Assembly (NCBI GenBank): GCA_946414075.1
Contig: CAMKNA010000010.1
Coordinates: 1 to 64,000 of the forward strand
DNA: 64,000 bases
Origin: an uncultured Fibrobacter sp.
GTDB lineage: Bacteria; Fibrobacterota; Fibrobacteria; Fibrobacterales; Fibrobacteraceae
Reading direction: 5' to 3'
Both the position numbers and the translations under genes were made by a program. Of this stretch, positions 23,322 through 29,409 are shown in pieces (positions within the stretch are counted from its first letter, which is position 1; each line of letters starts with the position of its first letter). Below the pieces are notes generated by a model. That model worked only from the letters and a program-made list of their open reading frames with translations. It ran no database searches and was not told where the DNA came from.

Positions 23322-23400
23322 GTTGCCTCCTACGGAAAGCCTTTGACAATATACAAAAGAGCGCGCAGGTTGTCTGCCGCTAGGAATGCCGATAAATCGC

Positions 23401-23407
23401 TATATTT
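23401..23407 (+). promoter_or_regulatory. TATATTT box, leaderless-type promoter of the RlmD-type gene
   Basis: TATATTT ends 5 nt before GTG 23413. It lies inside the longer reading frame that opens at ATG 23386, which argues for the internal GTG as the start. Confidence 0.5.
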
Positions 23408-23412
23408 TCCCT

Positions 23413-24624
23413 GTGGTCTGTGAACTTTCCATAGAAAAACTGGTGCAGGGGGGCGAAGGGTTTGCCCGCCTGCCGGGCGGTCGCGTGTGCTTTGTGCGGG
23501 GCGGCCTGCCTGGGGAACGCTGCCGGGTGGAGCTGACCACAGGCAAGAAGGATTTTGCGCGGGGCCGGGTGGTGGAAGTTCTGGAAAAGAGCGCCGACCG
23601 CGCGCAGCCGAAGTGCCCGCTGTACGGGAAGTGTGGCGGCTGCAGCTTACAGCATCTGGACTCTGCGAAACAGGTGACCTACCTGGAACATGTGGAGCGG
23701 GAAAACTTCAAGCGGATCGCCCACGAGGAACTGCCCGCCGAATTTATCATTCATCAGGGTGAGCCCTGGGGCTACAGGAACCGGGCCCGTGTGGTTTATT
23801 TAGGAGACCGTGATGGACATTGCCGTTTTGGTTTCCGCAAGCAGGAAAGCAACGGGGTGGTGGCTGTCGAAAGCTGCCCGGTACTCACTCCCGGCCTGAA
23901 TGACTTTTTGAAAAATGCCAAGCCTCCGGAAATTTTCAGGGGATTGAAGCATGTCCCGAGAGACTTGGAACTGAACATCTTCGACGATGGCACGGGCCGT
24001 GTGGCCTACTATTACCGCGGGATGCCTGAGGCCCGTAAGCGTGAATGCTCCGTCAGCTGCGTTAAGATAGGGGCCAAACAAATAACGAGCGGCGCATCTG
24101 TGTTTTTCCAGAGCAACCTTTCCCTGTTGCCTCGGCTGGTACAGTCCGTGCGGGAGGCGGTGGACGAGGGAATTGCCTCGGGTGCGGCCACCGATGAATG
24201 GCTGATCGACCTTTTCAGTGGGGTGGGGTTCTTTGCCGCCCTTTTGCAGGACAAGTTCAGGCGGGTTACCACGGTGGAGCGGGATTCGCTTTGCCTTGAG
24301 TACGCGAAGGTTAATTTGTCTGGAATGGGTGGCGTAGTGGAAAATGTTTCCGCGCCGGCGGAGGAATGGCTGGTAAAGAATGTGGTGGATGTCCCCGCCA
24401 CCCTGATTGTGGACCCGCCCAGGACGGGACTTCCGCCGGAAGCATTGGATGCTATCGTGAAAAGCTCGGTGAACAGGGTGATTTACGTGTCTTGCGACCC
24501 GGTGACGCTGGCCCGGGATTTTGCGAAGTTCCGGGCGGCGGGATTTGCCCTGAAGCGGGCGGAAGGCTTCGCCTTTTACCCCCAGACGCCCCATCTGGAA
24601 ATGATGTTCGTGCTGGCCCGTTAG
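23413..24624 (+). CDS. 23S rRNA (uracil-5-)-methyltransferase, RlmD/TrmA family
   Basis: 403 aa from GTG 23413. A TRAM RNA-binding domain (about residues 1-60, ELSIEKLVQGGEGFARL) leads to the 4Fe-4S cysteines (CPLYGKCGGC plus a later SCPVL), as in RumA/RlmD. The methyltransferase core has DLFSGVGFFAALL, DPPRTGL and the catalytic Cys361 in SCDPVTLARDF. It probably methylates C5 of uridine in 23S rRNA (U1939-type), though a related site cannot be excluded. GTG is preferred to ATG 23386 because the protein then begins exactly at the TRAM domain and 5 nt after a promoter box. Confidence 0.88.
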   Translation: MVCELSIEKLVQGGEGFARLPGGRVCFVRGGLPGERCRVELTTGKKDFARGRVVEVLEKSADRAQPKCPLYGKCGGCSLQHLDSAKQVTYLEHVERENFKRIAHEELPAEFIIHQGEPWGYRNRARVVYLGDRDGHCRFGFRKQESNGVVAVESCPVLTPGLNDFLKNAKPPEIFRGLKHVPRDLELNIFDDGTGRVAYYYRGMPEARKRECSVSCVKIGAKQITSGASVFFQSNLSLLPRLVQSVREAVDEGIASGAATDEWLIDLFSGVGFFAALLQDKFRRVTTVERDSLCLEYAKVNLSGMGGVVENVSAPAEEWLVKNVVDVPATLIVDPPRTGLPPEALDAIVKSSVNRVIYVSCDPVTLARDFAKFRAAGFALKRAEGFAFYPQTPHLEMMFVLAR

Positions 24625-25143: not shown

Positions 25144-26076
25144 ATGCGCATGAGATTTTTTGTTTTTTGTGGTGCCGCCTTGGGCCTTCTGCTTTTGTCG
25201 GGCTGTAATGAGACGATGGTGACCGTTGGCTACAAGCTCCAGGCTCCTGTAGACTTGGACCTGTATGCCGAAAGCTACTTCGCCACGGTGGACATGGAAG
25301 GCATCGAGCAGATGGGGACCATCACGGCGGCCTATGCCGACCTGAACTATTCTTCCAGTGGTGACACCGTGAAGGTAAAGCGCAAGTATGTGATGGACAA
25401 GTCCCGGGGCTACCTGAAGAACTTCATGCCCTCGGAATTGGCCTTCCGAATCAAGGAAGTGGACCTTGCGGCGGTGGACCGTTCCGTAACATCCTTGGAA
25501 GGGATCGACGACGGTTACGATACGCTTTTGGCCCACATTCCCATGCCCGAACGCTGGCGCAAGCAGCTCCTGAATCCGGAATACAAGCCCCATCTGAAGC
25601 GCCTGGAAAAGCACCGCTGGGAGATGACCCACCTGCTGAAGGGCGAAGTACCCTCCAAGGGAAACATCACCAAGCTGTTGCAGGACCAGGGACGCCTGAA
25701 CTTTGCCTTGATCAAGATTGATTCCGTGGTGGTGAAGGGTTTCGAGAACCGAGACCACCGCCGCTGCCTGGATTATGTGGTCTATTTGACGGAGACCGAA
25801 AGTTTCCCCTACTACATCTGGGAGCAGCATGTGAACAGCAACATCATCCCCGAAAAGTACAAGGCCTATAACTCTGGACTCAAGGCGGAATACAATACGG
25901 CCTTCGAAGTGATGATGGAACCCGAGACGGGAATCCCCTGCCAGGAACGTGAAGTGAAGGTGGGCAAGCACACCATGGTCCACCCCATTACCAAGGACAC
26001 CGTAGTCTTTGAAAGCCACATTACCAACGAGCGCCTGTTCAACCTGAAAAGGCCCGAGGAGAGCGCCGAACAGTGA
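25144..26076 (+). CDS. Lipoprotein of unknown function
   Basis: 310 aa. Lipobox LLLLSGC (Cys21). The mature domain has regular strands and a central helical segment with many Lys/Arg/Glu residues; no family is recognised. It lies 30 bp after the previous lipoprotein gene, and its TGA overlaps the GTG start of the next one (GTGA), so those two are translationally coupled. Confidence 0.6.
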   Translation: MRMRFFVFCGAALGLLLLSGCNETMVTVGYKLQAPVDLDLYAESYFATVDMEGIEQMGTITAAYADLNYSSSGDTVKVKRKYVMDKSRGYLKNFMPSELAFRIKEVDLAAVDRSVTSLEGIDDGYDTLLAHIPMPERWRKQLLNPEYKPHLKRLEKHRWEMTHLLKGEVPSKGNITKLLQDQGRLNFALIKIDSVVVKGFENRDHRRCLDYVVYLTETESFPYYIWEQHVNSNIIPEKYKAYNSGLKAEYNTAFEVMMEPETGIPCQEREVKVGKHTMVHPITKDTVVFESHITNERLFNLKRPEESAEQ

Positions 26077-26522
26077 CTCAGTCTAGGGTAAAAAATGGGA
26101 TTTTGTTGCTTGTGGTGGGCATGCTTTCGGCATGCGCGAACCACCCTTCGCCCCAGCAGACCATGGTGGACGACCGCTACATGGTTTACGAGCAGACCTA
26201 CAAGGCCTATGCCGAAGCCGAGAAGAAATACCTGAACCTGCTCTTCAATATCGAACGGATGCCCGAAGAAGAAGAGCTGTGGATGATGAAGCGCGACCAG
26301 ATGCTGGAGCTTTTGCAGCTCCGGGACCTGATGCTCCAGGCCCGCGGGGAACTGGACGATGCCGTGCAGGACTGGGAAAAGCACCTGCAGGAGGTCCAGG
26401 CCGATGCCAAGCAGGCGCAAATGAAGCAATACAATCCGAACTTTACGGGACATGATGGACAGAGGTCGAGCCCCGGACAGTTGTTGCCTGGCGAAGTCAA
26501 GGGCAAGAACAAACGGTGGTAA
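26073..26522 (+). CDS. Small lipoprotein with long coiled-coil helix
   Basis: 149 aa with a GTG start overlapping the previous stop. Lipobox GMLSAC (Cys21). Residues 30-120 are an almost continuous charged helix (EQTYKAYAEAEKKYLNLL...REL DD), predicted coiled coil; the tail is Pro/Gly/Ser-rich. Probably a partner of the preceding lipoprotein. The MetH-like gene begins 12 bp downstream, so all four genes may share one transcript. Confidence 0.55.
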   Translation: MTQSRVKNGILLLVVGMLSACANHPSPQQTMVDDRYMVYEQTYKAYAEAEKKYLNLLFNIERMPEEEELWMMKRDQMLELLQLRDLMLQARGELDDAVQDWEKHLQEVQADAKQAQMKQYNPNFTGHDGQRSSPGQLLPGEVKGKNKRW

Positions 26523-26534
26523 AGGGGTGTCCCT

Positions 26535-28844
26535 ATGAACCTTTCCAAATCTTACCAGGACCTGATTTCTTGCTGTAACCATCAGATTATGCTTCTGGAT
26601 GGCGGCTTTGGTACGATGGTCCAGCGCATGGATTTGTCCGAAGCTGAATTTCGGGGGAGACTTTTCCCGGACCATTTCGTTGAACTGAAAGGCGATAATG
26701 AAGTGCTTTGCCTTACCGCTCCCGAGAAGGTGAAGAGTGTCCATTTGGCCTATCTGGAAGCGGGTGCAGACCTGATACGGACAAACACCTTCGGGGCCAC
26801 CAGTTTTGGCCAGGCGAAATACCGCTTGCAGCATATGGCCTACGATATCGCGAAGGCGGGGGCCCAGGTGGCTCGGAGTGCCGTTGAAGAGTACAACGAA
26901 CATCGCAAGGTATTGGGCGCGATGGTCACGCCCAAGTTTGTGGTGGGGAGCATGGGACCGACGGGTAAGGCCGACGGCAATGTTTCCTTCAACGACCTGG
27001 TGCAGGCTTATAGCGAACAGGTCCGCGGACTCCTGGATGGTGGAGCGGATGTGCTCCTGGTGGAGTCCGTTTCGGATACGCTGAACGGCAAGGCCGCCCT
27101 TTATGCCATAGGCAAGGAAAGCGAGAAACGGGGGGAACTTTACCCCATCATGGTGTCGGCCACCCTTACAGATGGGAATGCCCGCTTGCAGACGGGGCAG
27201 ACGGCCAAGGCCTTTTGGCATAGTATTTCCAGTTTCCCCATTTTTAGCTTGGGCTTCAATAGTTGTGTGCGGAATGTGAACGACGCCTTCGTGCGCATTG
27301 GCGTAATTGTTGATGGGGAAATTCCGGACGAGTCTCCGGTGAATATCGTGGGGGGCGGTGGCGGAACCACGCCCGAGACGATCCGCAGCTTTGCGCGGGT
27401 GCTTTCCCACAGGGAGCCACGCAAGGTGCCCGCCCGTGACTACGACCTGCTGTTGAGCGGGCTTGACCCTATGGAAGTGGAGCCCGGGTGCCGTTTTGTG
27501 AATATCGCCCCGCCGGGCTCAGGCGGACAGGTGATAGCCGTGAACCTGGATGGGGATCTCGAAGACCCCAAGTTCGGCATGCCCAGGCTGTTGAACGACA
27601 TGCTGAAGGACCCCGTCCTGGCGAAAAGTCCTGTCATGATAGAATCCCTCAGGTGGGATGTCCTGCTTTCGGGCATGGAATGCATACAGGGCAAGGGCAT
27701 CGTGAAGTCCATCAGTCTTAAGGAAGGGGAAGAGGTCTTCTTAACCAAGGCCGAAGAAATCCGGCGCCATGGATTTGCCGTAGTGTGCAAGGCGGAAGAT
27801 GAAAATGGCCTGGCCCTTGCCTATGGCCGTCGTGTGGAATTAGTTGAGAAAATGTATCGCCTGCTGGTGGGCAGGCTGAATTTTGCACCCGAAGATATCC
27901 TGTTCGACCCGGTGGTCGTGCCCATAGGTACGGGCAGGGACGAGCATCCTGAATCTATAAAGGCCTTCTTTGAGACCTGCCGCTATGTGAAGGACAATCT
28001 GCCCCATGCCCATGTGGTGGGAGATATATCCCTTCTGGGTTATGCCTTTAGGGAAGACCCCTTCTTGCGTGGTGCCATGCATTCCGTATTCCTGTACCAC
28101 GCGACCCATGCGGGAATGGCCTTCGGGATTGGCGACATGCAGTCGGTGCCGCCCTACGCAGATATTCCGTCGGAACTGTGCCACCTAATCGAAGACCTGC
28201 TGTTCAACCGCAGTGCCGGTGCTACGGACGCCTTGCTGGAGTACGCGGAGGCGTCCAGCAGGAACAAGGGCAGGGATGGCTCCGACGGCGGAAAAATCTT
28301 CATGCCCCGGCTGGAAAAGCGCTTTGTCGAACTGAAGGAGAAGCTGTCGGCCAAGCGGCAGTCCCTTGAATCCGGTGACAGGCCCCGGCCTCCCTTCCAG
28401 GCGAAAATCCTATTGGTGTCCATGGATTCTCTCATTCACGACATTGATAGGGACATTTTGTCTGAACTCCTGTCGTGCTATGGTATTCCCGTGGTGGATT
28501 TGGGGTGTGGTAGTTCTTGCGAAAAGATCATGGAGACCGTGCTTTTCGAGCAGCCCGACATGGTCTACCTTTCGGCTCAGTTTAGGTCGGGCCTTTCCGA
28601 AATGAGGCATGTGGTCCGGGAATTTAGGCGCCAGGAAATCGGGATTCCCCTGATGGTGGGTGGCGATGCGGTGTCCGATGCGCTTACTTCGGCCCGGATT
28701 GCCCCAGAAGCGCTTGGTCCGGTAATCTATGTTTCCGATGTGAGAAAAACGGTCAAGGTGGTGGAGGCCTATATGGACGAATCCAAGCGCCCGGCCTTCC
28801 TTGCGGCCCTGAAGGCCCACCAGGACAAGCTCCGCCCCTCTTGA
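26535..28844 (+). CDS. Degenerate MetH-like (cobalamin-dependent methionine synthase) protein
   Basis: 769 aa. Domain order copies E. coli MetH: homocysteine-methyltransferase-like barrel (about 1-295), pterin-binding-like barrel (about 305-575), a very short cap (about 580-622), and a B12-binding-like Rossmann domain (about 623-769); the activation domain is absent. Fold landmarks remain (LDGGFGTMVQ, CIQGKGIVKSISLKEG, MVGGDAVSDA). Key residues do not: the zinc ligands in VGGCCGTTP are Gly275-Gly276, the LNC cysteine is Ser243 (a Cys follows), about 35 residues around the pterin GERTN/DIN motifs are deleted, and the cobalamin motif DxHxxG reads L-I-H-D-I-D (His635 kept). It is unlikely to be a methionine synthase. 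It follows three lipoprotein genes. Confidence 0.8.
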   Translation: MNLSKSYQDLISCCNHQIMLLDGGFGTMVQRMDLSEAEFRGRLFPDHFVELKGDNEVLCLTAPEKVKSVHLAYLEAGADLIRTNTFGATSFGQAKYRLQHMAYDIAKAGAQVARSAVEEYNEHRKVLGAMVTPKFVVGSMGPTGKADGNVSFNDLVQAYSEQVRGLLDGGADVLLVESVSDTLNGKAALYAIGKESEKRGELYPIMVSATLTDGNARLQTGQTAKAFWHSISSFPIFSLGFNSCVRNVNDAFVRIGVIVDGEIPDESPVNIVGGGGGTTPETIRSFARVLSHREPRKVPARDYDLLLSGLDPMEVEPGCRFVNIAPPGSGGQVIAVNLDGDLEDPKFGMPRLLNDMLKDPVLAKSPVMIESLRWDVLLSGMECIQGKGIVKSISLKEGEEVFLTKAEEIRRHGFAVVCKAEDENGLALAYGRRVELVEKMYRLLVGRLNFAPEDILFDPVVVPIGTGRDEHPESIKAFFETCRYVKDNLPHAHVVGDISLLGYAFREDPFLRGAMHSVFLYHATHAGMAFGIGDMQSVPPYADIPSELCHLIEDLLFNRSAGATDALLEYAEASSRNKGRDGSDGGKIFMPRLEKRFVELKEKLSAKRQSLESGDRPRPPFQAKILLVSMDSLIHDIDRDILSELLSCYGIPVVDLGCGSSCEKIMETVLFEQPDMVYLSAQFRSGLSEMRHVVREFRRQEIGIPLMVGGDAVSDALTSARIAPEALGPVIYVSDVRKTVKVVEAYMDESKRPAFLAALKAHQDKLRPS

Positions 28845-28878: not shown

Positions 28879-29409
28879 TTGAAAATTGAACTTGTCAAGA
28901 CTCTCGCTGAACCCGAGGACCGCCGCACGGTCTGGTCTAGAAGCGATGCCCCCGAGCTGTTCGATGAACTGCACCTGGTGGGCGAGCTTGTGGCCGAACT
29001 GCTGGTGAGCCCCGAAGCCGGTGACCGATTCTTGCTGACTGGCAAGCTTTCTGGTACGCAGAACCTTACCTGCTCCAGGACGCTGGAACCCTTCGACCGC
29101 CCCTTCTCTACCGAGATGGTGGTGGAGGTGACCCGCTGCCAGGTGGCCGCCCAGGAGCTTGACGAGGAGGACGCCGATGTGTATGCCTACCGGATTCCCC
29201 AGAATCAGGAGTTCGTGGAGGTCTCAGAGTGCGTTCGGGAGCTTGTAATCCTGCAAGAACCGCAGGCTCCCGTGAAAAATCCCGAAGAAGATTTTATCTT
29301 TGTGTCAAACAATCAAGCCGACGAAGGTGACCCAGGTGCCGAAAGCCCCATGGACCCCCGTTGGGAAAAACTAAAAGCTCTCAAGAGCAAAATGGAAAAT
29401 AGGAGTTAA
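28879..29409 (+). CDS. yceD: YceD/DUF177 family protein
   Basis: 176 aa with a TTG start. DUF177 proteins are encoded just upstream of rpmF in most bacteria and are linked to 23S rRNA accumulation and ribosome assembly. Family pattern here: [30 protein letters not shown] and the [29 protein letters not shown] block. The C-terminal region is acidic. The rpmF start follows after 2 bp, with GGAG in the 3' end of this gene. The TTG start is set by the promoter box. Confidence 0.85.

Follow-up and report, generated by a model that had tools for sequence, protein, structure and literature searches.

The window analyzed here is a stretch of 64,000 nucleotides from the metagenome-assembled genome of a rumen Fibrobacter (G000), which comprises 2.31 Mb in 65 contigs and is 82% complete. 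Its forward strand carries a conserved gene block, RlmD-F9-F4-F3-(X), that starts with an RlmD-like RNA methyltransferase (23386-24624; PF05958 and TRAM). Upstream of X, in a presumed operon, are placed two genes for lipoprotein-like proteins: F4 (25144-26076; 310 amino acids, no Pfam match) and F3 (26073-26522; 149 amino acids, from the open reading frame list and synteny), which overlaps F4 and stops 12 nucleotides before X. The gene X (26535-28844) encodes a degenerate MetH-like protein of 769 amino acids. Its ATG is preceded, at a distance of 7 nucleotides, by a likely Shine-Dalgarno sequence, read as AAAGGGG (26521-26527), that overlaps the upstream stop codon. A gene for YceD (DUF177; 28879-29409), identified by domain match, follows 34 nucleotides after X, and then PlsX. 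Control by a riboswitch was rejected, since no Rfam family matched in the window and only tRNAs were found at eight related loci. On the reverse strand, an open frame of 514 amino acids (25866-27410) runs opposite F4, F3 and the beginning of X. The relatives of the window have long antisense frames at the same place too, and these are probably a by-product of codon bias.

The assignment of X as a MetH-like protein is based on the open reading frame, Pfam, NCBIfam and alignment. Pfam matched PF02574 at residues 19-244, PF00809 at residues 349-531 and PF02310 at residues 624-714; the initial annotation had aligned the protein by eye with E. coli MetH along the homocysteine barrel, the pterin barrel and the B12 domain. 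The PF00809 match covers profile positions 58-241 and the first quarter of the profile is thus missing. Neither the PF02607 cap nor the PF02965 activation domain was found in the Pfam search of X, in line with the reduced cap and the absent activation domain noticed at first. The NCBIfam MetH models scored X far under their cut-offs (634 of 1497 bits and 584 of 1011), and PF01717, the MetE and core-MetE domain, has no match in X or in the window genome. Four parts are distinguished: a homocysteine-barrel homologue (residues 1-300, 26535-27434; PF02574 and AlphaFold2 model), a pterin-barrel homologue with the first helix deleted (residues 320-575, 27492-28259; PF00809 from profile position 58 and AlphaFold2 model), a remnant of the cap domain (residues 576-620, 28260-28394; alignment, no PF02607 match) and a B12-binding-like domain with a rewritten cobalamin motif (residues 621-769, 28395-28841; PF02310 and alignment).

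The catalytic sites were compared by alignment with E. coli MetH from MG1655 (locus L034). The zinc ligand Cys247 is replaced by Ser243 in X (27261-27263), and the ligands Cys310-Cys311 are replaced by Gly275-Gly276 (27357-27362). Both substitutions had been read correctly in the initial annotation, as had the change of SNVSF to SLLGY and that of DxHxxG to LxHxxD. The GERTN segment of the pterin barrel (E. coli residues about 361-393) is deleted at the junction PPGSG (27510-27524), where about 32 residues are missing. The deletion was recognized earlier, with a somewhat larger size (about 35 residues) and with the DIN motif counted as lost, whereas it is altered to AVN. The other pterin motifs are changed as well: DSS to ESL, VNS to VKS, FDPN to FDPV and SNxSF to SLLGY. 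In the B12-type domain, DVHDIGKN became LIHDIDRD (LIHDID at residues 633-638, 28431-28448), with the histidine of DxHxxG kept and the aspartate and glycine lost, and GLSGLITPS became YLSAQFRSG (YLSAQF at residues 678-683, 28566-28583). The frame is uninterrupted, as first reported, and codes for the 769 residues with no stops. Judged from these residues, methyl transfer by X is very unlikely.

The fold, on the other hand, is predicted to be retained. The AlphaFold2 model of X, built with 27 related sequences, has a pLDDT of 86.8 and superposes on the N-terminal half of human MTR (4ccz) with a TMt of 0.86 and an rmsd of 2.6. This model lacks the first pterin-barrel helix. A 593-residue protein of the second degenerate group described below (clade II) was modelled with a pLDDT of 86.7 and a TMt of 0.83 to 4ccz. 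According to these models, the MetH double barrel still stands in both degenerate groups.

The relatives of X were surveyed in 111 genomes of the family, and all the conclusions rest on draft genomes. The gene is found in three states: intact, clade I and clade II. Intact X contains all the catalytic motifs and no activation domain. It has 926-933 amino acids in Fibrobacter G041, G044 and G046, where it occupies the same position behind F4-F3 as the degenerate gene, and mostly 882-953 amino acids in other genera; the protein of F. intestinalis ATCC 43854 (L147) is also intact. In most genomes with intact X, PF02965 is a separate protein of about 260-350 amino acids, and a full-length fused form is present in G002 and G104.

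Clade I groups the window protein with G068 (85% identity) and with G031, G067, G085, G024, G032, G073, G065, G090 and G066 (68-73%), all degenerate and 762-790 amino acids long. The relatives of the window in this clade are eleven, ten of them full-length (68-85% identity) and one, G082, frameshifted. The Gly-Gly pair at the zinc site is private to the window; the sister G068 has CS and the other relatives CS or -R, so that both cysteines of the pair are kept in none of them, and all three zinc cysteines in no degenerate copy. The axial histidine (His635) is kept in 11 of the 11 clade I proteins analyzed, and the glycine three residues past it is an aspartate in the same 11. HDIDRD is invariant in the 11 proteins and YLSAQF throughout the clade, in which the B12-type domain still has His635, Ser680 and GG. 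Clade II comprises eight genomes, with proteins of 587-605 amino acids (G020, G027, G036, G081, G087) or 655 amino acids (G037, G061, G080). They are degenerate, with the same kinds of loss, and have no B12 domain at all. Orthologues with the losses of the window protein, which the initial annotation proposed to look for, are thus present in about 20 genomes. The frameshifted G082 copy (L048:7481-9971) has more ancestral motifs left, among them GIHDIGKE and the pterin segment, and is a basal form that is perhaps dying.

Every clade I genome, taken as a genome with an F4 at least 91% identical to that of the window, carries X. Many other Fibrobacter are without it, and in the 15 examined the RlmD-F9-F4-F3 block joins F10 directly, with X cleanly missing. 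X is consequently dispensable to the genus.

Selection was evaluated with pairwise dN/dS values (Nei-Gojobori). Between recent degenerate relatives, dN/dS is 0.056-0.105 at a dS of 0.14-0.37, and for X of the window and G068 it is 0.14 at a dS of 0.57. The maximum is about 0.21 for any clade I pair, G082 apart, and clade II pairs show 0.15-0.17 at a dS of 0.5-0.9. The neighbouring RlmD-like RNA methyltransferase has values mostly of 0.06-0.20 in the same genome pairs. The substitutions between the window and G068 copies are distributed as 86, 47 and 221 over codon positions 1, 2 and 3. Random substitution of the X frame produced no fewer than 6 stops at 0.3 changes per site, 13 at 0.6 and 15 at 1.2, and none is observed. 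The low dN/dS, the bias in codon position and the absent stops rule out a decaying pseudogene as the main reading. The outcome named beforehand as speaking for such decay, lack of orthologues together with dN/dS near 1, was not seen: between degenerate copies the ratio is 0.06-0.21, far from 1. The conserved non-methyltransferase role proposed in the initial annotation is therefore backed by the shared losses, the dN/dS far below 1 and the uninterrupted frames.

A set of 224 positions is identical in every intact X, canonical MetH and E. coli sequence included in the comparison. All clade I proteins retain 81 of these positions and all have lost 58; another 61 are mixed, and the remaining 24 consist mostly of gaps. 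The lost positions are constrained and not drifting: across four sublineages they reach an identity of 0.65, compared with 0.69 for ordinary positions, and in 11 of 11 clade I proteins 22 of them are fixed to one new residue. Many of the fixed residues are in the B12-type domain (DVHDIGKN to xxHDIDRD, GLSGLI to YLSAQF), whose identity is 0.70. Constraint on the lost positions is weaker in clade II (0.36, compared with 0.55), where other residues are fixed than in clade I.

The barrel faces were defined from predicted strands and author-chosen residue windows. In the homocysteine barrel, the catalytic-face loops have an identity of 0.90 in intact proteins, but of 0.50 (clade I) and 0.39 (clade II) in the degenerate ones. 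The corresponding values are 0.64, 0.76 and 0.65 for the opposite face and 0.62, 0.74 and 0.58 for the helices, while the overall identity is nearly equal in clade I (0.73) and in intact proteins (0.71). The contrast between the faces is significant in clade I (Mann-Whitney U, p 6e-8) and in clade II (p 2e-7). For the pterin barrel, only clade II reaches significance (p 2e-3; p 0.15 for clade I). In each of two intact control groups the catalytic face is, as usual, the better conserved one. The best-conserved parts of X could, however, maintain the fold rather than form an interface.

X descends from the Fibrobacter MetH of 926-933 amino acids with full motifs and a separate activation protein. 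In the gene tree of X, the degenerate forms of clades I and II constitute one clade (100/99.8), and a grouping of clade II with G044 is rejected (p 4e-5). The tree of four neighbouring genes, on the other hand, places clade II beside G044 and G046, apart from clade I. Two independent losses of catalysis, as the neighbour genes suggest, were not adopted, since the X tree unites the degenerate forms, although long branches could contribute to this union. Either X may have been exchanged between lineages after the loss of catalysis, or long branches may mislead. The pterin segment was deleted at least twice, because the 655-residue forms and G082 still have this stretch. For several pairs, the divergence of X exceeds that of its flanks (G027 and G061 share 49% identity in X and 95% in RlmD and F4), as an exchange of old alleles would also produce. 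In several pairs the nucleotide identity also falls sharply at both ends of X (window X; L075, L094), with flanks mostly at 75-99%. These sharp boundaries reflect either old alleles exchanged at this spot or the very fast evolution of X alone.

Most genomes with a degenerate X have another methionine synthase. A canonical MetH of about 1,220 amino acids that includes the activation domain, or else pieces of this gene at the ends of contigs, is found in 11 of the 12 clade I and in all 8 clade II genomes, and was not seen in the three Fibrobacter with intact X. Of the 20 degenerate-X genomes, 19 thus have canonical MetH or fragments of it. The search for MetH or MetE elsewhere in the window genome, proposed in the initial annotation, gave neither, at 82% completeness. 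There, the site of the clade I canonical MetH is closed, with flanking genes about 60 bases apart (G000:C11:16970-17030, L167) on a 61-kb contig, and the sister G068 has the 3' end of canonical MetH at the syntenic site. A rule that degenerate X always accompanies canonical MetH was accordingly discarded. The window genome has MetF and PF01053 enzymes, so that its methionine synthase is probably in the missing 18%; alternatively, the strain is a methionine auxotroph. The dS of canonical MetH is 0.27-0.42 between the clades, against 1.4-2.5 for neighbour genes, and the gene looks recently spread through rumen Fibrobacter, apparently horizontally. Canonical MetH genes were observed at different loci (L058-L074, L094).

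Three features of pseudoenzymes are found in X: homology to MetH with a fold predicted to be retained, lost catalytic residues and purifying selection after that loss. The constraint has, in addition, moved off the pockets. The reading given somewhat better than an even chance is that of a MetH pseudoenzyme, maintained by selection, that acts without catalysis and binds by way of its outer surface. Since the B12 domain is absent from clade II, cobalamin cannot be a ligand common to both clades; homocysteine is unlikely as a shared ligand because the zinc ligands are lost in both. Both clades share the body of the double barrel with its outer surfaces, from which a binding role is inferred, with a protein as the partner more likely than a small molecule. 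In the proposed course of events, a native Fibrobacteraceae cobalamin-dependent MetH with a separate activation protein would have relocated to a place behind the F4-F3 lipoprotein pair of Fibrobacter, or would already have been there. Another methionine synthase would then have taken over the reaction, and the catalytic, pterin, zinc and cobalamin sites would have been abandoned while the folded protein was kept by purifying selection. Contact with the partner, probably a protein, would be made by the outer helices of X and by the face that points away from the former active sites, and in clade I also by the rewritten B12-type domain with the new conserved HDIDRD/YLSAQF surface. A fuller version is held more tentatively, at a little below even: MetH would have turned non-catalytic in rumen Fibrobacter in two versions, one with a rewritten B12-type domain no longer binding cobalamin (clade I) and one reduced to a bare double barrel (clade II), both with a protein-binding or regulatory role at the outer surface unrelated to methionine synthesis.

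An unlikely, though the most serious, competitor is a slowly dying relic, whose job is lost and which is expressed and folded only because misfolding is costly, on its way to clean deletion. The empty site between F3 and F10 in the 15 X-less Fibrobacter, the stepwise shortening from 930 to 770, 655 and 590 amino acids and the G082 frameshift fit this course, as does the faster divergence of X relative to its flanking genes, which counts against the pseudoenzyme reading. The relic has to be reconciled, however, with dN/dS values of 0.06-0.10 between recent relatives, similar to those of RlmD, with the presence of X in every clade I genome and with the 22 lost positions fixed for a single new residue. 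Less probable still is a sensor or carrier in which a single small-molecule site survives, either for cobalamin, bound through His635, or for a pterin or homocysteine, and whose task would be to report or store this ligand. His635, Ser680 and GG are kept in the constrained B12-like domain of clade I, but the DxHxxG glycine is aspartate in 11 of 11, GLSGLITPS is rewritten, clade II has no such domain, the zinc ligands and pterin motifs are lost in both clades and the pocket faces are the least constrained. The small-ligand or cobalamin binding that the initial annotation offered as an example is for the same reasons disfavoured as a shared role.

A prozyme-like activator or inhibitor of the canonical MetH of the same cell is considered improbable. 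There is precedent for dead paralogues that activate live ones (PMC5201418, PMC3663545), and the canonical enzyme or its fragments co-occur with degenerate X in nearly all the genomes; it arrived recently, however, is 97% identical to that of G054, which has no X, and is missing in the window assembly. A role in regulating methionine metabolism, also suggested at first, is unlikely on these grounds for the present canonical MetH. A link between X and MetE was inconsistent and was set aside, MetE being absent from clade I and present in most clade II genomes. The catalysis of a new reaction in reshaped pockets is the most improbable alternative: several of the 22 new fixed clade I residues are at former active-site positions, but no metal-ligand set is present, the constraint has left the catalytic face and clade II fixes different residues.

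Compared with known systems, X has the domain order and the predicted fold of MetH (E. coli MetH; human MTR, PDB 4ccz/9ssp), with 37-38% identity to human MTR over the aligned N-terminal half. It differs by the absence of zinc ligands, GERTN and activation domain, by the rewritten cobalamin motif and by a cap reduced to a remnant. By the tree it is the same gene as the native Fibrobacteraceae MetH (F. intestinalis ATCC 43854 L147; G041/G044/G046), in which, unlike in X, all the catalytic motifs persist and PF02965 is supplied by a second, separate protein. The MetH of Phaeobacter and Desulfovibrio is split or activation-domain-free, with active pieces and reactivation by RamA-like DUF4445 proteins (PMC5764234). 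MetH parts or reactivation are thus encoded on separate genes there as in Fibrobacteraceae, which use a standalone PF02965 protein instead; X, moreover, is inactive by sequence. The T. brucei AdoMetDC prozyme (PMC5201418) and DHS (PMC3663545) are dead paralogues that regulate enzymes. X resembles them as a catalytically dead relative kept by selection, but canonical MetH is unlikely as its live partner. The core-MetE or folate-independent methionine synthases belong to the MetE type, are active and obtain their methyl groups independently of folate (PMC7005905, PMC7857596); they are reduced methionine synthases too, whereas X is MetH-type without zinc ligands. A limited literature search found no description of a MetH pseudoenzyme.

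The genus Fibrobacter contains, side by side, the intact enzyme, its clean deletion and two selected degenerate versions. With such a series it can be tested in what way a large multi-domain enzyme turns into a pseudoenzyme, and what purpose the MetH fold serves without chemistry. For annotation, a PF02574, PF00809 or PF02310 match in Fibrobacter is no evidence of methionine synthesis.

Several observations concern the surroundings of this system. Fibrobacteraceae beyond most Fibrobacter have an activation-domain-free MetH and a standalone PF02965 protein (L050, L051, L052, L046, L147), with the two genes as close neighbours in G107 and G105; no description of a MetH split in this manner was found in the literature. 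MetE-like fragments with in-frame TAG stops (G032:C2:47345-47626, G034:C68:1426-1704, G061:C4:266208-266486) appear, from their sequences, to be remnants of the cobalamin-independent methionine synthase. Standalone PF01717 proteins of about 380-425 amino acids, possibly of the core-MetE kind, occur in G028, G058 and G108. F4-F3 was rejected as a required partner of X, since the pair is in nearly all the genomes, X being present or absent. F4 is found in 106 of the 111 family genomes and F3 comes next after it at every site examined. Without a Pfam family, this lipoprotein-like pair (25144-26522 in the window) may represent a conserved envelope function.
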